From Flavobacteriaceae bacterium (GTDB lineage Bacteria > Bacteroidota > Bacteroidia > Flavobacteriales > Flavobacteriaceae), in contig JAIUMH010000010.1 in assembly GCA_022565635.1 (NCBI GenBank), positions 1-38,995 on the forward strand: a stretch of 38,995 nucleotides of DNA, written 5' to 3'. The notes under the pieces were generated by a model. The model did not search any database and was not told the origin of the DNA. It was given only the letters and a program-made list of their open reading frames with translations. Of the stretch, positions 14,195-28,770 are shown in pieces (the first letter of the stretch is position 1; each line of letters begins with the position of its first letter). Both the position numbers and the translations under genes were made by a program.

Positions 14195-17100
14195 CTATTG
14201 CTGTCTATTAATATATAACCAACCTTTGTATTCACTACCGTAAACTGGGTCGGTTTGAGTAAATTTAATTACAATGAAATACGTTCCTGTAATTAAGCTA
14301 TTTCCTCCTTGATCTTGACCAACAAAACTGTTTTCATAGTTATTTTGTTGGAACACTTTTTTACCGTATCTATTGAAAATTTCTAATTTAGAAATCCCTG
14401 AACGGTCATTTAAAAACCTTAAATCCAATGAAGGGTTCATTCCTTCTGGTGAAATTCCTTGAGGTATGATACAATTTTCAATTGGATAACGTTCTAATTC
14501 AATTTCAGTTTCACAATCACCAACAACTAAGCGAACACGATCAATATCATTCATTGCACCGGTAACAGATCCAATTTCAAATTCAAAATTAACCCCAGTA
14601 GCAGGTTGTTGTTGTCCGTTTACAAACCAAGCAATGCTGGTTCCTTGTGCTAATTCTTGGTCATCTGCTAAGGCTTGTAATTCAACAGTTTCACCAACAC
14701 AGAACAGATTATCTCCAGAATTTTCAACAAATATACTAAGATCTTGAGTTCCTACAAAGGTGCTGGCAAAACCAACACATTCTTCTGCATCTGAAAAAGC
14801 TTCCACTTCATATAATCCATGCCCGTAAGTAGCTACATCTAAAGTTTCCAGATTTTCTCCTTCCAATATCTCTCCATCTAAAAACCACTGGAACAAGGTT
14901 AATTCTACTTCAGTATTTTCAGGCGTGGCATCTAAAATTACACTTGACAAATCACAATTTACAATTTCTTCTGGAAGAGTGATTACAGGTGACTCATTAA
15001 AGACATATTCTACACTTGCTGAATCAACACAACCATCAATATCAATCGTTACGGTGTAAATATTGGTTTCAGAAACTTCTATGCTTTGAGTTGTTTCACC
15101 AGTACTCCATTCGTAAGAAATTTCACCTTCAAAATCACCTTCAATATTAGCGGTAATGGTTTGTACTTCTTCAACATCACAAAATTCCTGATCACCCCCT
15201 AAGTCGATATCAAATTCAGTAAACTGAACCGTAAAATCAAAAACGCTTAAACATTCTTGCAAACCTGTTCCAAAACCAGATGAATAAGTAGTGATATGAA
15301 GTGCATACTGACCAACTTCATCAATTTCAAAATTAGGGTCTGCAGAAAGCTCATTTCCGTTTTCGTCTAACCAGGAATACTCAATTTCTTGGTAATCATC
15401 TAGATTTATTGGAGTAGCATCAAATATAAGGTTATCTCCTTCACAGAAGTTAATTTCAGAAAGTTCATTAGGGTTAAGCTCAAAGTCGGGACCCATTTCA
15501 ACTTCAGGAGCTAATCTTACATCATAAAATCGTTCTTCTGGACCAATGGCAGGATCAGATAAATGTAGTAATCTATAGACACCAGATTCTTCAACAAATA
15601 AATTAGGCTCATCTTCACCATCTATTAGAACAAAGTCTGCTATTTCATCATCCTCATCAAACAAAACTTCAAACCATGCATATGCATCTGCATCTTCAAT
15701 CCCAGATTCAATCATAAAGCCTTCAGAAGCACAACCATAAAGCACACCAAATACGTCATCACAACTTGTACTTCCACTTTGGTCTTCACCAAGGTTAACT
15801 TGATTAAGCGATATGTAACCTGCTGCTTGATTAAAGTTGGTAATTAAGATAATATAAATTTCGCCAGCTTCGGCATTAGGTATAAACATTTCTTCAATTG
15901 GTGCAGGCAAGAAACTACAATCTACAGTATTAGCTGCCGTAAGGTTATCGCAATTTCCTTCCACCTCATCAAATGGCCCATAAGCAATATAATCTACATC
16001 TAAAAGTTGACCAAGTGGCTCACCATTCTCATCAAAAGCAGTAGATTGTGAGATAAGGAAATCTAAATCCCCACTCTCTTGAACTGTAATATAGAACCAT
16101 GCAGGGTTAGGTTGACTTCCTAAACAACCATAATCAGGTCCGTCTTCAGCGGAAGTTGATTCATTGTAAAAATAAGAGTTTGGAAAAACTAATGGAGTAG
16201 GATTACCTTCGTCATCTATAGGTGCGCAAAATGGTTCTAAATCTTCACACAAACCATTTTCCTCAAAAAACTCAGGAGTAGTAATACATAAGTCAAAATT
16301 TAAATTTTGAGTACCAAACGAATAGACTCTAACATAGTATGTTTCTCCTATAGTTAAATTTTCGGCTACCATTGAGTTTGAGTTACCAAAGTTATTGAAT
16401 TCAGTACTACAGTAAAGTTCATTTAAATCTCCACAATCATTTTCATAAATGGCTGTACCTATTGGAGCGCCAAAAGCTGCATCTGGCAAAATAGTAGTCA
16501 TATGCGTTTCTGCAGTAGCTTCAAATTCATACCAAACATCTTGTGAAATATTGGCATGACAAGAAGAAGGCACTGAAGTTGCAGTTGCTTCAAACAATGT
16601 CCCCTCATTTAACTCAACACAAAGATTTCCTTCATTGACAACAGCAATTTCCGCATCATCACAAGAAGAATTTGCTGGTGGACAAGCATCTTGGGTAAGC
16701 GATTGACTACCTATGATACAGTTTTGATCATCTTCATTTTCAATAGTAATTTGCACATCTGTTCCATTAGGATAAGGCCCAAAAGTTACAACACCTGTTT
16801 CAGTTACATTTTCTGTAAATTCATCTTGGTTATCAGTAATCTCTAAAGAGGTAGCGTCTCCTAAATCAGTAACATTAATATCTACAAAAAATTGATCTAT
16901 ACCACTGCCGCAATCATCTACCACTTCATAAGTTGCCTGTGGATTAATACAAGTTGCACAAGAAACTGAATATTCTATTTCTTCATAATTATTTCCTTGA
17001 CAATTCACGGAACCATCAGAGTTTATTAAAACAGTTAATTCATCTCCAGTAGATTGAAAAGAATTTCCAGAGATATTTCCCCCTTCATTAAACAACACAG

Positions 17101-20252: not shown

Positions 20253-20347
20253 TTACTTATTATACAAGAAAAGAATACAAGTATAGATTTTATATGACCA
20301 ATTATAAGATTTCTCTATATTAATGCGTAGATTAAGAAAATGTTTTG

Positions 20348-20355
20348 TATTTTTG
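20348..20355 (+). promoter_or_regulatory. -7 box of the TRL-like lipoprotein gene
   Basis: TATTTTTG matches TAnnTTTG and places the transcript start near 20362. This supports translation from the ATGs at 20376/20379 rather than the in-frame ATG at 20340, which would lie upstream of the transcript. Confidence 0.6.
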
Positions 20356-20375
20356 GGAAAACTTTAAATTTCTTA

Positions 20376-20651
20376 ATGATGAAAAAATTTTTTATTTTAG
20401 GTGCAATGGCTTTGGCAATGGCATCATGTTCAGTAACTGTACCTGTAAACGCTACAAGTAACGAAGTAGGTTCAAAAACTGGTTCTGCCAGCACTACAGC
20501 AGTATTTGGTTTATTTTTTGATGGAGGCGATGCTTCAATCAGAACAGCTGCTAAAAAAGGAGGGATTAAAAAAATCTCTACCGTTGATTTCAAAATGTCT
20601 AATTACCTGTTTATAATCAGACAATTTGAAACTACAGTTACAGGAAACTAA
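20376..20651 (+). CDS. TRL-like family lipoprotein
   Basis: A small lipoprotein of 91 residues (90 if the second of two adjacent ATGs is used). A signal sequence ends in the lipobox AMASC. The body SNEVGSKTGSASTTAVFGLF, followed by GDASIRTAAKKGGIKKISTVDF, matches the pattern I know for the TRL domain family (small Bacteroidota and Leptospira lipoproteins first noted at tRNA-linked loci), whose function is unknown. The sequence predicts a glycine zipper-like segment and a beta C-terminus. It is likely monocistronic: it has its own -7 box (20348-20355), and a strong terminator follows 17 bases past the stop. Confidence 0.8.
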   Translation: MMKKFFILGAMALAMASCSVTVPVNATSNEVGSKTGSASTTAVFGLFFDGGDASIRTAAKKGGIKKISTVDFKMSNYLFIIRQFETTVTGN

Positions 20652-23063: not shown

Positions 23064-23570
23064 CTAGATTTTATTGGTTGGTTTTTTCATCAATGGAAAA
23101 AATGAAAAAATAATAAGCAATACACTTACTAAAAAACTCAACGTCATTAAAGCTCCTGAAGCGATAACCACATACTTCATCCATGTACATCCTAACCAAA
23201 GTAAATAAATACCTCCAAAAGTAACAAGTACAGAAAGTAAAGGCTCAATCATTAAGAATTTTCTAAGCCATAATTGATACGAAGTAAGATAAACCAAAAT
23301 TGATAAAATAAAGAAAATAACGGACATAGATAAAATATGGGTATGGGTGAGATTGAGCATTTGAGCTTCAGATTTTTTAAATTTCATCTGTAATGCCTCT
23401 AAATCATCCTCATTTCCTAAATAATTTTCTTCAATCCCTTGCGGATGAGCTTCAGTTGTAAAATGAACAAAATTAATCCCTGTAAAAAACCCAATACTCA
23501 AAACCATCAAAAAAATTCCCGTAAGCCATTTAAGCTCGCTAGGTAATTGAGCTAATTTAAAATCATTCAT
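23064..23570 (-). CDS. Small four-helix membrane protein with histidine pairs
   Basis: This 168-residue inner membrane protein belongs to no family I can name. The first ATG (23570, MNDFKLAQ) is chosen; a TTG six bases earlier adds two residues. Helices run at about 15-35, 78-98, 107-127 and 132-156. The positive-inside rule (KK near the C-terminus) puts both termini in the cytoplasm. The periplasmic loop 37-76 and its edges carry H36, H42, H76 and H78 (NFVHF, EAHP, THTH). Such histidines near one face could bind haem or metal, but this is inference. The start overlaps the end of the FMN-binding protein gene by eight bases, so the two are translationally coupled. A membrane electron donor or anchor for that flavoprotein is the natural guess. 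Confidence 0.8.
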   Translation of the reverse strand: MNDFKLAQLPSELKWLTGIFLMVLSIGFFTGINFVHFTTEAHPQGIEENYLGNEDDLEALQMKFKKSEAQMLNLTHTHILSMSVIFFILSILVYLTSYQLWLRKFLMIEPLLSVLVTFGGIYLLWLGCTWMKYVVIASGALMTLSFLVSVLLIIFSFFPLMKKPTNKI

Positions 23571-24123
23571 TTCCAAGTAAATTATTAGATTTTAAATAAC
23601 TCAGTTGATTCAAGGCTTTTTGTGTTGCTTCCGTCATAGATGTAGCTGAAATAGTTGCCCCAGAAATAGCTTGGATTGATTTACCTAATTCAATAGTATC
23701 CTCACTTGTCATCCCAATAAATTGTTTTAACCAGCGTTGGCTTCCAATTTGTTGTCCGTGTTGTTCTCTATAAATCAAAACTTTTGATTTTAAAATTTGA
23801 AGTTCTTGATCTACAATAATTAAGTAATCAAATACATCTTTCATTGAATTGGCTTGACCTAAATACGCAAAAGCTTGTACTTCTTCATTGAAGTATATTT
23901 GATAAATGTACGTCTGTGAAGTTTCCCAAGAAGCTTCAGCATTGAGCAAAATTGAAGTTTCAACTGGAACTAATTGAAAGTCATTAACTGCCATCGCTTG
24001 CTCAATAGCTTTTTTCATTTTTGCCTCTAATTGAGTAGAAGGCGACTTTTCAAATGCTAATTGAATAGAAAAAAGAGTCATACAAGTTGCAAAAAAAGTA
24101 TATAAAAAGTAGGTTGATTTCAT
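23563..24123 (-). CDS. Secreted FMN-binding domain protein (covalent-flavin type)
   Basis: A 186-residue exported protein. An N-terminal hydrophobic segment (about 4-22) acts as signal or anchor. The C-terminal region carries S154-G-A-T157-I-S-A-T, the S/T-GAT motif of FMN_bind domains, in which ApbE links FMN to the threonine (known for NqrC and relatives). The Asp usually found a few residues before the motif (as in D-x-x-SGAT) is Gln here, which is odd. Residues about 70-130 have the alternating strands expected of the domain. It should work as a periplasmic electron carrier. It lies 73 bases after the DUF6607 gene, across a hairpin, and overlaps the next gene, for the four-helix membrane protein, by eight bases. 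No apbE gene is in this window. Confidence 0.8.
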   Translation of the reverse strand: MKSTYFLYTFFATCMTLFSIQLAFEKSPSTQLEAKMKKAIEQAMAVNDFQLVPVETSILLNAEASWETSQTYIYQIYFNEEVQAFAYLGQANSMKDVFDYLIIVDQELQILKSKVLIYREQHGQQIGSQRWLKQFIGMTSEDTIELGKSIQAISGATISATSMTEATQKALNQLSYLKSNNLLGNE

Positions 24124-24146
24124 CGTTTGAAGTAATTAAGTTAAAG

Positions 24147-24176
24147 CTGAGATTGTTCGTGCTCAAACAACCTCAG
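24147..24176 (-). promoter_or_regulatory. Intercistronic hairpin in the DUF6607-flavin operon
   Basis: ctgagattgtt (24147-24157) pairs with aacaacctcag (24166-24176) at ten of eleven positions around an eight-base loop. No strong T run follows on the minus strand, so it is more likely an attenuator, a partial terminator or an mRNA-stability element that sets the ratio of DUF6607 to the flavin proteins. Confidence 0.45.
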
Positions 24177-24196
24177 TTTAAATAAAAATAGTTGTT

Positions 24197-25096
24197 CTAA
24201 TTCAAAATAAATTTGGCAAACACCTCTTCAATATGCTGCTTATCATCTTTATCTTCTTGCGGGGTTAAATGCATAAAAAGGGGGTGCTCTTCTACTTTTT
24301 CAGCCAGTTTTAGATTTCCCTCACGAGCGTAAACCTCATCCCATTTGGCATTCACTAAGTCCCAATATTCCTTATTTTCTTGCCACCAATCCTTAGCTGC
24401 TTCGCATTTTTTATCATCTACTTTTTTGTAAATATTAAAACCTTTTTCCTCAGCTATTAACACATCTTGTTCTCCTTCTTTTCTTAAAATCTTTTTATTA
24501 TCCTGCTCATGTACCCAACCATAATTGGTAATTTCATGGCGATTGCCTCGGTTCATTACATTATAATCGTCTCTTGTTGTGTATTCTCTTCTTGGTAGAG
24601 GAGAATCATCTGCCGACTCCCAATACTGCTTCCCATCATAATGCACCCATGTGGCTGTACCAGCATAACGCGGGCTATCATCTACTTGATACACTTTTTG
24701 AGTCCAAGTACCTTTCACATCTTTTTTATCTCTTTTGAAAAACTTCCATTGATGATTTTTGTCATACACAAAAGAAGTTGGGTCTTCGTACGTCCAATCT
24801 TGTCGCCAATGCTTAATTACGCGATTTTCACCTACTGAAAGTATATGCTGAATAACTATTTTTCCTTTTTCATCCACAATGGCTTCGGCCCATTCTAAAG
24901 CTCCTGAAGTGTAATCGTAAGCTTTTTCATAATCTATTTCAGGCGAAAAAGTTTCGGTGTACTTAAAAGTAACCTCATAACATCCACACATAGATTTGAT
25001 AGCTTCTACATCTTGTTGGTATTTCTTCTTTTGGCCAAAACTGAAACTGAAAGTAAAAACGGCCAACATTAAAAAAATTAAATTTCTGATTTTCAT
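24197..25096 (-). CDS. DUF6607 family secreted protein
   Basis: A 299-residue exported protein of a family I recall as DUF6607, found in Bacteroidota and without known function. The signal peptide ends near FSFGQ, and the mature protein begins QDVEAIKSMC37GC39YEVTFKY, with a conserved-looking CxC-Y. The body is rich in Trp, Tyr and charged residues arranged as beta-strands (KHWRQDWTYED, HQWKFFKRD, GTWTQKVYQVDD, GTATWVHYDG). It contains HEITNYGWVHE, then a helical C-terminus (AAKDWWQENKEYWDLVNAKWDEVYA read as pieces), which resembles a lipocalin-like barrel capped by helices. It is first in a minus-strand operon with the FMN-binding and four-helix membrane proteins and diverges from the haem-type TonB receptor, which suggests a periplasmic role in haem or iron handling. 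Confidence 0.8.
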   Translation of the reverse strand: MKIRNLIFLMLAVFTFSFSFGQKKKYQQDVEAIKSMCGCYEVTFKYTETFSPEIDYEKAYDYTSGALEWAEAIVDEKGKIVIQHILSVGENRVIKHWRQDWTYEDPTSFVYDKNHQWKFFKRDKKDVKGTWTQKVYQVDDSPRYAGTATWVHYDGKQYWESADDSPLPRREYTTRDDYNVMNRGNRHEITNYGWVHEQDNKKILRKEGEQDVLIAEEKGFNIYKKVDDKKCEAAKDWWQENKEYWDLVNAKWDEVYAREGNLKLAEKVEEHPLFMHLTPQEDKDDKQHIEEVFAKFILN

Positions 25097-25127
25097 TAGT
25101 GTATATTTTAAAATTATTTTTCTGGGA

Positions 25128-25135
25128 CAAATTTA
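25128..25135 (-). promoter_or_regulatory. -7 box of the DUF6607 operon
   Basis: Read on the minus strand this is TAAATTTG, an exact TAnnTTTG, about 31 bases before the DUF6607 start codon (position good to one base). Its upstream -33 region runs into the inverted-repeat arm at 25155-25164. Confidence 0.6.
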
Positions 25136-25154
25136 TAAAATTATTTTTATTCAA

Positions 25155-25197
25155 TCTAAATAAATATATATATTTGCCGAAATTAATTTTATTTAGA
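25155..25197. promoter_or_regulatory. Inverted repeat flanking the receptor promoter, candidate iron/haem operator
   Basis: TCTAAATAAA (25155-25164) and its exact complement TTTATTTAGA (25188-25197) bracket the receptor -7 box. Extended, the two half-sites read TTTAGATTGAATAA (minus strand) and TTTAGACTTGATAAA (plus strand), so they are two similar sites in opposite orientation. The position suits a repressor controlling both operons. Identity as a Fur- or DtxR-type site is a guess from the genes, not from a known consensus. Confidence 0.5.
25169..25176 (+). promoter_or_regulatory. -7 box of the TonB-receptor operon
   Basis: TATATTTG matches TAnnTTTG. The transcript should begin near 25183, upstream of the ATG at 25211 and overlapping the right arm of the inverted repeat. 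Confidence 0.6.
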
Positions 25198-25210
25198 CTT
25201 GATAAATATA

Positions 25211-27340
25211 ATGAAAGTTACATATAGTTTTGTTTTGTTGCTAATCATAGGGGTTCAATTATATGCCCAACAAGAAGATTTTGATTGGATACAGGATAGC
25301 GTATGGAATGAGCAAATGGAAGACGTTATTGTTACTGGTCAAATTAATCCACAGTCGGTGAAAGAGTCGATTTATGAGGTTAAAGTAATTAACCGTAGTA
25401 CAATTGAAAATTTAGCAGCAAATAATTTGGCAGATGTACTTAACCAAAGTTTAAATATCAATATTGTACCCAATGCGCAAACCGGAAAGTCTAGTGTAGA
25501 AATGTTTGGTTTAGATGGCCAGTATTTCAAGATTCTAATCGATAACATCCCAATGGTGAATGATGAAGGCATGGGAAATATGGCAGATTTAACACAAATT
25601 AATATAGATGACATTGAGCGTATAGAAATTGTTGAAGGAGCTATGGGTGTAGAGTATGGAGCCAATGCTGTTTCGGGTGTAATTAATATCATTACCAAAA
25701 AATCTTCTGAAAACAATTGGGAAATCACTCCTTATATCCAAGAAGAAACAATTGGTAAGGAATACAATGTAACAGACCAAGGAAGGCATATACAATCCAT
25801 TAGGATTGGTAAGAACATCAATAAAAACTGGTATGCTAACGCCATTTTTACTAGAAATAACTTTAATGGTTTTTTAAATCAGCAACAAGGGAAAAACCAT
25901 CCTTTTAATGATGGATTGCGCGGGCATGAATGGCTTCCGAAGCTTCAAAACAACTTGAAAGCCTTACTTAATTACCGAGGAAAATTTAATTTCTTTTACA
26001 AATTTGAATACTTTGATGAGGAAGTCAACCGGTATTCAAGACAGGTAAGAAGCAATTATAATCCTGCAACACAAACCAGTAATCCTACAGCCTCTGATGA
26101 TAATTTTTTCTCCGAACGTTACATTCATCACATCAATTTGAATGGAAAAGTCTTTAAACAATCAAAATTTGATGTTTCTATTTCCTATCAACAGCAAAAA
26201 AGAGATGTTGAACAATTTAATTATCGAATCTTAGCGGGTGAACGTTTTAATATTCAACGAACAGAATTTGAATCCAGGCGCGTGTTTTTTTCAAGAGGCA
26301 CACTCAATAATTTTGTTCCTTGGGAAAAAGTAAAACTTCAAACAGGCTATGAGCTTAATTTAATAAATGGCTTTGCCTCGCCTATGTCAAATCCTTTAGG
26401 AGGGGATCAAATCAATAGAAGATTAGATGCCTATGATTTTTTTACTACTGCTGAAATAAGAGCTACCAGTAGGCTGTCATTTAGACCAGGTGCACGATTA
26501 ATGCTTACCAACCAATTTGATCCACTTATAGCCGCATCATTTACCACAAAATATTTGTTTCCTAATGGCTGGGAAATCAGAGGAATTCTTGGTACCGCTC
26601 CAAGAGTTCCCAATTATGACGAATTATACACCTTCTTTGTAGATTCTAATCATGATGTCCGCGGCAATGAAAATTTGAGTCCCGAGACTGGTACTTCAAC
26701 ATTTTTACACTTGAAGCGAAAGTTTTGGTTGAACAATGACGAAACAAAATGGCAGGTGAAGTTTTCCTCTTGGTACATTCGTGTAAAAGACCGCATAGAA
26801 CTCACGGTAATTAACGATATGCCTTTGCAATATCAATTTAATAATATTGATTTATTTAGAACTTGGGGAATAGAAAATTCACATAGCTTTCAGCATAAAA
26901 ACTTTAATCTTAATTTGGGGATTTCGGTTCAAGGAGTATCTCAACAATTAGATAGCAGAGATTTTGATGATGACTTTTTATACCGTTTACAAGCCAACAC
27001 CAACATCAATTACCGCATTCCAAAGTGGGATACCACATTTTCTTTATTCTATAATTACAACGGTCCGCAATTTCAATTTGTGCAACGCCAAAATGAGGAT
27101 GGAGAAACGGAACTAGTAAGAGGAAAACTGGAGTCATTTGCTTGGTTTGATGCAAGTATCAGGAAGCAATTCATTAACAAGAGATTAGACTTAACCTTAG
27201 GTGCAAGAAACCTAATGAATATAAAACAAGTCAACACCACAGCCACAGAAGGTGGAGCACATAATGATGCCGCTAGAAGTTTATTACTAGGCTACGGTAG
27301 ATCATTTTTTTTACGCATTCAATATAACCTTAATTTTTAA
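25211..27340 (+). CDS. TonB-dependent outer membrane receptor, haem-receptor-like
   Basis: A 709-residue outer membrane transporter powered by TonB. The ATG at 25211 gives a clean signal peptide (MKVTYSFVLLLIIGVQLYAQ). A TonB-box-like MEDVIVTGQ follows (about residue 40), then the plug domain: LADVLNQSLNINI, DGQYFKILIDNIPM, IERIEIVEGAMGVEYGANAVSG, VINIITKK. The remainder is a 22-strand-type barrel ending FFLRIQYNLNF. Near residue 462, APRVPNYDELY, and near 485, GNENLSPETG, resemble the FRAP...NPxL box of haem receptors such as HmuR. There is no N-terminal carboxypeptidase-like domain, so it is not a SusC-type protein. The HmuY-type gene follows after 11 bases. Haem is the likely substrate; another siderophore-like ligand remains possible. 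Confidence 0.9.
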   Translation: MKVTYSFVLLLIIGVQLYAQQEDFDWIQDSVWNEQMEDVIVTGQINPQSVKESIYEVKVINRSTIENLAANNLADVLNQSLNINIVPNAQTGKSSVEMFGLDGQYFKILIDNIPMVNDEGMGNMADLTQINIDDIERIEIVEGAMGVEYGANAVSGVINIITKKSSENNWEITPYIQEETIGKEYNVTDQGRHIQSIRIGKNINKNWYANAIFTRNNFNGFLNQQQGKNHPFNDGLRGHEWLPKLQNNLKALLNYRGKFNFFYKFEYFDEEVNRYSRQVRSNYNPATQTSNPTASDDNFFSERYIHHINLNGKVFKQSKFDVSISYQQQKRDVEQFNYRILAGERFNIQRTEFESRRVFFSRGTLNNFVPWEKVKLQTGYELNLINGFASPMSNPLGGDQINRRLDAYDFFTTAEIRATSRLSFRPGARLMLTNQFDPLIAASFTTKYLFPNGWEIRGILGTAPRVPNYDELYTFFVDSNHDVRGNENLSPETGTSTFLHLKRKFWLNNDETKWQVKFSSWYIRVKDRIELTVINDMPLQYQFNNIDLFRTWGIENSHSFQHKNFNLNLGISVQGVSQQLDSRDFDDDFLYRLQANTNINYRIPKWDTTFSLFYNYNGPQFQFVQRQNEDGETELVRGKLESFAWFDASIRKQFINKRLDLTLGARNLMNIKQVNTTATEGGAHNDAARSLLLGYGRSFFLRIQYNLNF

Positions 27341-27351
27341 ATATTTAAATC

Positions 27352-28770
27352 ATGAGAAATTACAAATTACTTATTCATTTTTTCCTAATTGGAATTTTAT
27401 TGACCGCTTGTAGTAGCGACGATGACAACGCATCAACAGTAGAATTTGTGGTAGCATTTGAGCAACCCTCCATTCAATTAAGTAACGATTTACAAAGTCG
27501 GGAAGTACAATTAATGTTTTCAAGACCCGCTCCTCAAAATGGCACATTGAACATTCAAATAAATTCGGATTCTAGTGTGTATGATGAAGATTTTTCTACC
27601 TTTCCTGAAGCTGTAGAAAATCAATTAGAATTGAGTTTTGAAGCGGGAGAGACCAACACAAACTTTACTTTTGAACAATTAACACAGGTACTTGAAGGTG
27701 AGGAAAAAAGCATTGAATTTGAGATTACAGAAGTGAGTATTCCTAATACAGTATTTTCAGGAAATACATTTTTAACGGTGAATTTATCAGAATCAGCCGC
27801 TTTGGGAGGTAGTTTTGAAGCTGAAGTTGGTGGCCCCAATCAGCCTAACCAAGTATTTATTAACTTAAGCGGACAACAACAAACTGTAGTTTCAAGAGAC
27901 GCCTGGGATTTAGCTTTTTACAGCGGAAACAAAAACCGAGTAATACTTAATTATTCTACACAAATGGCCGTTGGAAAAACAGAATTCACCAACCTTGCAG
28001 AAGTGAACCAAGCAACAGTGGAAACTTTAATTCCTCAAATAGCCATTGGTAATTTTAATCCAGAAAACATGGTTTTTGTAGATGAGCCCAGCGGTGACTT
28101 AAACCAAACTGCTATGGATGAAGTTAGCTCTAATCCAGAGGAAAATCATGTGTATATCTTGAATTTAGGAAACGAAATAGGAACTGACACCCCACAACCA
28201 GGATCTGTTGCTGTAAGTGGAGTCGCAAGAGGATACCTAAAAATACGTGTACTTCTTGAAGGTGATCAATACCTGTTGCAATATGCAGATTTAAACGCTA
28301 CCGAATTTAATGAAGTAAGCATTCCTAAATCGTCTGGATTCAATCACACTTTCTTTAATCTTAATCAACAAAGCATAGTGCAAGTTGAACCAGAAAAGCA
28401 TCAGTGGGATTTAAACTTTACAGTGTTTACCAATGAAATCCCAAATGCTGGTTCATATATGTTTACCGATTTTATTCTTACTAATCGCCATGGTGGAACA
28501 AAGGCATACCAAGTAAATACAGATGAACTTTCTTATTCTGAATTTACTTATGAAAATGTAGATCCAGCCAAGTTTTCAAACGACCAAAGGACTATTGGAA
28601 GTAACTGGAGGCAAGGTGGTGGTCCAGGGCAAGCACCAAGTCTGTTTGAAGATCGATTTTTTATCCTTCAAGACACCCAAGAAAATGTGTATAAATTACG
28701 ATTTTCAGCTTTATTAAGTGAAACAGGAGAACGAGGCTTTCCAGCTTTTGAATATCAATTATTGAATTAG
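27352..28770 (+). CDS. hmuY: HmuY-family haem-binding lipoprotein with N-terminal beta domain
   Basis: A 472-residue lipoprotein (lipobox LLTAC20, then SSDDD, a typical outer-surface export signal in Bacteroidota). Residues about 30-150 look like a Calx-beta-type Ig domain (SVYDEDFSTFPEA, LSFEAGETNTNF). From about 155, the motifs SRDAWDLAFYSG, HQWDLNFTVF, EDRFFILQDTQENVYKLRF and GFPAFEYQLL fit the HmuY family of haemophore-like proteins, which bind haem and pass it to a TonB receptor. P. gingivalis HmuY is much shorter (about 216 residues), so this is an enlarged form. It follows the receptor by 11 bases in one operon, as hmuY and hmuR are paired elsewhere. Which residues would hold haem cannot be fixed by eye. 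Confidence 0.85.
   Translation: MRNYKLLIHFFLIGILLTACSSDDDNASTVEFVVAFEQPSIQLSNDLQSREVQLMFSRPAPQNGTLNIQINSDSSVYDEDFSTFPEAVENQLELSFEAGETNTNFTFEQLTQVLEGEEKSIEFEITEVSIPNTVFSGNTFLTVNLSESAALGGSFEAEVGGPNQPNQVFINLSGQQQTVVSRDAWDLAFYSGNKNRVILNYSTQMAVGKTEFTNLAEVNQATVETLIPQIAIGNFNPENMVFVDEPSGDLNQTAMDEVSSNPEENHVYILNLGNEIGTDTPQPGSVAVSGVARGYLKIRVLLEGDQYLLQYADLNATEFNEVSIPKSSGFNHTFFNLNQQSIVQVEPEKHQWDLNFTVFTNEIPNAGSYMFTDFILTNRHGGTKAYQVNTDELSYSEFTYENVDPAKFSNDQRTIGSNWRQGGGPGQAPSLFEDRFFILQDTQENVYKLRFSALLSETGERGFPAFEYQLLN

Follow-up and report, generated by a model that had tools for sequence, protein, structure and literature searches.

Haem-capture locus with an attached probable flavin redox pair

The window, by which we mean the whole analysed stretch of 38,995 nucleotides, carries a haem-capture locus that is probably controlled by Fur and whose rhuH operon has probably gained a two-gene periplasmic reductase. 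The putative reductase consists of an FMN_bind protein and a four-helix membrane protein, and its genes follow that of a DUF6607 protein, which stands divergently from the genes of a TonB-dependent receptor and an HmuY-type lipoprotein. This five-gene grouping is real and goes beyond chance, and it is a minority arrangement. The reduction of imported iron or haem is poorly assigned in Bacteroidota, and the Fur-boxed operon of a porin, a flavoprotein and the four-helix protein is a concrete candidate for a missing ferric reductase. The membrane protein of this candidate operon belongs to a family found in 38 of 395 genomes sampled evenly from the phylum, and the operon at times directly adjoins fur, feoAB and apbE. 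The RhuH-linked branch poses a sharp question that can be tested in non-pathogenic marine bacteria, namely whether periplasmic reduction of haem comes before the use of its iron.

The preliminary description of this DNA had placed five genes at 23064-28770, and all five open reading frames are found there (Table 1). It had also estimated the divergent promoter at about 115 bases; the ATG codons of DUF6607 and the receptor are separated by 114 bases (25097-25210). There is an overlap of 14 bases between the FMN and membrane genes, and a gap of 73 bases separates DUF6607 from the FMN gene. Within the promoter, TATATTTG (25169..25176, plus strand) fits TAnnTTTG, the -7 promoter element of Bacteroidota. 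Elsewhere in the window, a TRL-like protein at 20340-20651 (PF13146, 76.7 bits) adjoins two small proteins, of which one has no match in Pfam; the TRL-like protein showed no tie to the haem or flavin finding.

Table 1. Coordinates of the locus within the window
Feature	Position	Strand	Remarks
Four-helix membrane protein gene	23064..23576	-	170 aa; probable membrane electron donor with invariant H78 and H80; unassigned in Pfam
FMN_bind protein gene	23563..24123	-	N-terminal hydrophobic stretch; SGAT; expected ApbE target
DUF6607 (RhuH-type haemophore) gene	24197..25096	-	H96, R143, Y144, R170, R183 and Q198 kept
Fur-type box, exact pattern match	25141..25163	-	In divergent promoter
Second Fur-type box, 2 mismatches	25189..25211	+	Overlaps receptor start
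TonB-dependent receptor gene, RhuR/HmuR-like place	25199..27340	+	ORF from TTG 25199; likely start ATG 25211
HmuY-type lipoprotein gene	27352..28770	+	Two HmuY stretches

DUF6607 is the RhuH haemophore family

The window protein scores 341.9 bits against the DUF6607 family of Pfam. A structure model built from 23 sequences (mean pLDDT of 82.4) was matched by Foldseek to PDB entry 8xjc with an E-value of 1.1e-27, 47% identity and TM-scores of 0.80/0.86, and the DUF6607 profile matches a single PDB sequence, again 8xjc (E-value of 1.5e-108). This entry is the haemophore RhuH of Riemerella anatipestifer (PMC11967795), and DUF6607 is the RhuH haemophore family. The Riemerella protein binds haem with a Kd of 3.44e-11 M and is released in vesicles; in its predicted haem complex, His96 is the iron ligand, and Arg143, Tyr144, Arg170, Arg183 and Gln198 are located at the propionates (PMC11967795). 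All six residues are present at the same numbers in the window protein and are identical in 35/35 aligned DUF6607 homologues. The window protein may likewise bind haem and be secreted in vesicles, as is reported for Riemerella. The preliminary description had taken DUF6607 for a periplasmic binding or transfer partner, a role that does not agree with the secreted vesicle haemophore reported in that species.

The receptor contains a TonB Plug domain (72.2 bits), and the lipoprotein matches HmuY in two stretches (86.4 bits; both Pfam), so that a TonB receptor stands beside an HmuY-family lipoprotein as in HmuR/HmuY-type pairs. The receptor is below the curated cut-off for haem receptors (TIGR01785, 85.9 vs 316.85 needed), and among the NCBIfam models it scores best against TIGR01779, a B12 model (94.7 vs a cut-off of 599.7). 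Haem is assigned as its substrate by context only.

Fur-type boxes

A 23-base Fur-type pattern was derived from aligned rhuH promoters and used with up to two mismatches. It is found at 11 distinct places in the window genome, and its reversed form, which served as a control, at none. The sole exact match in the genome is located in the divergent promoter of the window, where a second site begins at 25189. Seven of the 11 places precede iron-type genes: besides the two sites in the window promoter, two are before a TonB receptor, two before a SUF-type operon and one before a ferric-type ABC transporter (the first SUF and ABC genes were scanned, the other genes were named by reading). One of the remaining four is upstream of a small gene, after which comes a Dps-like gene (by reading), and the other three have no plain iron link. 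Sharing its box with other iron genes of the genome, the window locus belongs to a predicted Fur regulon.

The window box and the published Riemerella Fur box, ATTTAGAATTATCCTAAAT (PMC10986502), have the core ATTTAGA in common. Fur binding and the iron response were shown for the Riemerella rhuH locus (PMC11967795), and the gene beside the Riemerella receptor-hmuY operon was up in iron-limited medium according to RNA-seq (PMC5429918). The link to haem or iron that had been proposed for the window locus is strongly supported by the identity of RhuH, the receptor and HmuY clusters at DUF6607 loci, and the Fur-type box in the shared promoter.

Furthermore, a Fur weight matrix trained on 44 promoters of rhuH loci reached its threshold of 16 bits before 52 of 55 scorable barrel genes of porin-FMN-membrane operons vs 3 of 721 control genes from the same loci. 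One of these three control genes heads the imelysin operon of locus L171 (see below), and another directly precedes DUF6607 in locus L190. The DUF6607 score of the matrix (23/25) is circular because these promoters belong to the training set, a concern that does not apply to the porin operons. Across the phylum-wide set, the 16-bit threshold is attained by 14 of 36 barrel genes, so outside Flavobacteriaceae the Fur-type box is either not general or poorly modelled.

The FMN_bind protein and its membrane partner

The FMN_bind domain scores 28.8 bits against a Pfam cut-off of 22, and the SGAT motif named in the preliminary description is present. Among 115 flavin proteins of this type, the flavin-site motif reads [ST]GA[ST] in 102 and (A/V)GAT in the other 13. 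ApbE was found in 26/26 genomes searched, with one match in the window genome (266.9 bits), which combines the FMN_bind domain, the [ST]GA[ST] motif and ApbE as expected for ApbE-flavinylated proteins. ApbE would attach the FMN covalently to this protein. The sole ApbE match of the window genome (contig C22, locus L233 of genome G000) is by an Nqr-like cluster, named by reading, with a second FMN_bind gene, and hence the single ApbE would serve both FMN_bind proteins. In the metagenome-assembled genome of the closest relative (L135:7448-8008), the FMN_bind gene is split into two ORFs, which is either a true break or an assembly error.

The 170-residue membrane protein has no Pfam family above the cut-off. 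Its model (mean pLDDT of 91.9) shows long helices at 13-41, 70-96, 102-127 and 133-159 and a short helix at 45-53, in agreement with the earlier account of a four-helix, histidine-bearing protein; the two histidines are H78 and H80. These histidines and G54 are invariant in 117/117 distinct sequences. From the distribution of charges we infer that both ends are cytoplasmic, the 42-69 loop is periplasmic, and H78 and H80 are near the periplasmic face. No solved relative was found. The NapH-, MsrQ- and PepSY-like, DsbD and NQR/RNF-like families are absent among the matches listed for the window protein at E-values up to 1, as are the known flavinylation membrane families among 25 of the 27 families shown for 48 members. 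In hhalign, the similarity to haem-copper oxidase-like/DUF2871 proteins had a probability of 6%, or 12% after three unrelated rows were dropped, and that to COX1 and cbb3 less than 1%. DUF2871 is a weak match in 12 of the 48 members with a best E-value of 5e-4, while noise families such as Claudin_2 reach 5e-5. We regard the resemblance of the HxH helix to haem-copper oxidases and DUF2871-type proteins as no more than a lead.

Distribution and history

The same phylum sample contains DUF6607 in 36 of its 395 genomes; one case, a contig-end fragment, was left out, and 35 loci were counted. Gene clusters were obtained by our own ORF calling and BLAST linkage, with some members confirmed by Pfam, including one of each HmuY cluster. 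In the co-occurrence check that had been suggested for DUF6607 across Bacteroidota, the HmuY-type cluster is present in 30/35 loci; the receptor cluster is present in 31/35. Neither is present within the examined stretch of L031, L032 and L058, and L033 has a TonB receptor of a different cluster. The FMN/membrane pair accompanies DUF6607 in only two of the 35 loci, the window and L038, which means that RhuH works without the pair.

The membrane gene was called in 37 of the 38 loci of its family (all except L134). The FMN gene accompanies it in all 37; a barrel gene is upstream in 35, DUF6607 is present in two, and ApbE is within four genes of the pair in 15. All four barrel proteins scanned exceed the Porin_O_P cut-off. 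A scan of one genome per species yielded 413 relatives, which were narrowed to the best 80 by likeness to the window. DUF6607 is upstream of the pair in 22 of these 80, a share of the best 80 of 413 and not a phylum-wide rate, a porin-type barrel is upstream in 57, and neither is in one (L171). The preliminary description would have been contradicted by DUF6607 and flavin genes lying mostly away from haem and iron genes. For DUF6607, the receptor and HmuY-type counts above show the opposite; the flavin pair is indeed mostly found without haem genes, behind a porin, yet it is Fur-boxed there.

Together with the window and L038, the DUF6607-linked loci number 24. A TonB receptor is within six genes in 24/24 and an HmuY-type gene in 23/24, the sole exception being L179, which is near a contig end. 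Gaps are four bases or shorter in 21/24, and the DUF6607-FMN-membrane order is kept across several named genera. In L190, the DUF6607, FMN, membrane, HmuY and receptor genes are all on one strand, and in L169 the receptor, HmuY, DoxX-like, barrel, FMN and membrane genes all run divergently from rhuH.

For a tree of the pair, the FMN and membrane proteins were concatenated in 115 rows (L135, whose FMN gene is split, and L171 were omitted); the search was a quick one, and long branches were flagged. Its 23 DUF6607-linked rows need one label change (SH-aLRT of 87) and lie amid barrel-linked rows, with L101 adjoining. The simplest reading is that the pair was recruited once into the RhuH locus and then spread to records titled Saprospiraceae (L178) and Cytophagaceae (L144).

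Iron and redox neighbours

Of 117 pair loci, three (L163, L105 and L133), all of the porin-linked form, have feoB on the same strand and within five genes. The order in L163 is barrel-FMN-membrane-FeoA-FeoB, and L132 has Fur, PD40 protein, barrel, FMN, membrane and ApbE genes. Locus L105 (3265-9902) carries fur, feoA, feoB, Porin_O_P, FMN_bind, the four-helix gene and apbE, all in the same orientation, and is the most complete version of the proposed iron-reduction module. At L171 (1219-8501), genes for DUF4856, imelysin, HTTM, a TonB receptor and a CxxCH Haem_bd protein are followed by the four-helix gene in an operon-like array headed by a Fur-type box, and the locus yielded no FMN gene. We read this one case as a flavin-for-cytochrome swap, with the Haem_bd protein in the place of the flavin protein.

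A PepSY_TM-cluster gene is within five genes of rhuH in 4 of 35 loci (L033, L036, L037 and L039; three of the four were scanned), which suggests that redox genes were recruited there repeatedly. The C-terminal part of the L037 protein (14369-16417) resembles, by eye only, a separate small four-helix protein (L036:7004-7483) of the RhuH loci L036, L039 and L040. This hints that the two proteins work together.

In the window genome, we found no haem-oxygenase match and no FeoB_C match; the other 25 of the 26 genomes searched have FeoB_C. This counts against a simple Fe(II)-FeoB route in the window genome, the assembly of which comprises 248 contigs at 99.1% completeness, so a gene gap is possible.

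Proposed mechanism and its alternatives

The gene order, the Fur-type boxes, the identity of RhuH and its haem-site residues, the feoAB, fur and apbE neighbours and the single lineage of the RhuH-linked pairs form a computed framework, onto which we place the following putative steps. RhuH, the TonB receptor and the HmuY-type surface protein would capture haem under the control of Fur. Near its periplasmic HxH site, the four-helix membrane protein would accept electrons from the quinol pool, which it would hand on to the FMN that ApbE has attached to the FMN_bind protein. The reduced FMN would then reduce ferric iron or haem iron brought into the periplasm by the TonB receptor, which would ease iron release or handover. 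In its porin-linked form, the pair would serve Bacteroidota more widely as a Fur-controlled iron-reduction module, and the haem version would have arisen from this form as a single branch. By analogy with flavinylated iron reductases (PMC8238504, PMC11334425), we favour a path in which electrons from quinol reach ferric iron or haem via the membrane protein and FMN; this path is made likelier by the Fur-type boxes on the sister porin operons, the feoAB, fur and apbE neighbours and the Haem_bd substitution in L171.

It is rather unlikely that the pair reduces only non-haem ferric iron or its complexes and sits in the haem operon merely for the Fur-controlled promoter. Such a role would suit the commoner form of the pair, which has the same box and, in 57 of the best 80 of 413, a porin-type barrel instead of haem genes, and it is this form to which the feoAB neighbours of L105, L163 and L133 belong. 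However, the RhuH-linked pairs are one lineage, adjacent to receptor genes in all 24 loci, L190 carries all five genes on one strand, and the window genome is without a FeoB_C match. The haemophore, receptor and HmuY partners, together with the feoA, feoB and fur neighbours, also make it improbable that the electrons run in reverse or elsewhere, i.e. that the pair is a respiratory or redox-stress module induced by iron limitation and not an uptake reductase, even though the porin-type partner has no known iron role, the direction of electron flow is a proposal, and the genome's own ApbE and a second FMN_bind gene are in an Nqr-like cluster (by reading). Finally, an accidental and functionless juxtaposition of the pair with RhuH would agree with its presence in only 2 of 35 DUF6607 loci of the phylum sample and with the 73-base gap between the RhuH and FMN genes in the window, but the order is kept in 22 of the best 80 of 413 across several named genera, mostly with gaps of four bases or less (21/24), and we consider this explanation very improbable.

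Within the preferred reading of a haem-capture locus with an acquired periplasmic reductase, the identity of the acceptor deserves a comment. Since the Riemerella RhuH is a secreted protein, RhuH may never encounter a periplasmic reductase, and the pair of the RhuH branch is likely, though not certain, to act on haem that has been imported into the periplasm and not on free ferric iron. A broader proposal, which we make tentatively, is that the four-helix HxH protein could represent a new class of membrane electron donor for flavinylated proteins, acting as a Fur-controlled iron reductase across Bacteroidota and, in the RhuH lineage, as a dedicated periplasmic haem reductase coupled to the haemophore.

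Relation to known systems

In the rhuH/rhuR-rhuA locus of R. anatipestifer (Wang 2025, PMC11967795), the haemophore gene is divergent from those of a TonB receptor and a haem-binding outer-membrane protein, as in the window. The shared promoter has a Fur box in both and measures 122 bp in Riemerella and 114 in the window, and the haem-site residues are the same. The available part of that paper mentions neither a flavin protein nor a membrane protein. Hence, the earlier claim that the five-gene combination is undescribed has to be divided: the trio of RhuH, receptor and HmuY-type protein and its divergent layout are already published, so that three of the five genes are known, but no description was found of the FMN/membrane pair with RhuH. 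The FMN_bind/four-helix pair is the new part, and flavinylated iron reduction is known in kind. In the openly accessible main texts that were searched, no account was found of the membrane family or of the pair in either setting, be it behind RhuH or behind a barrel.

The flavinylated iron-reduction systems of Meheust 2021 (PMC8238504) likewise combine an extracytosolic FMN-bearing protein, a membrane electron donor and ApbE, with proposed links to iron uptake. Their membrane parts are MsrQ-like, PepSY-like, DsbD, NapH-like or NQR/RNF-like, and the window membrane protein matches none of them; the available Results text of that paper has no mention of porin, HmuY, hemophore, Bacteroid- or FeoB. 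The DUF4405/FezC cytochromes (Huang 2024, PMC11334425) are, like the window protein, small histidine-bearing membrane proteins tied to flavinylation or iron. However, DUF4405 has six helices and four central histidines, whereas the window protein has four long helices and one HxH motif, and DUF4405 is absent among the Pfam matches listed for the window protein and its family members.

The Hfp system of Flavobacterium psychrophilum (PMC9331221) resembles the window in its iron-responsive TonB receptor and HmuY-type haem-binding protein, but, unlike the window, it has a DoxX-family gene between the two; FMN is not mentioned in the accessible part of the paper. DoxX-like small membrane proteins adjoin HmuY genes in several haem loci (L043:5037-5495, L140:2812-3261 and L169:5470-5922), as in the hfp operon. 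DUF6686 proteins also recur in RhuH/HmuY loci (L038:11073-11378, L036:10712-11059 and L057:9412-9759).
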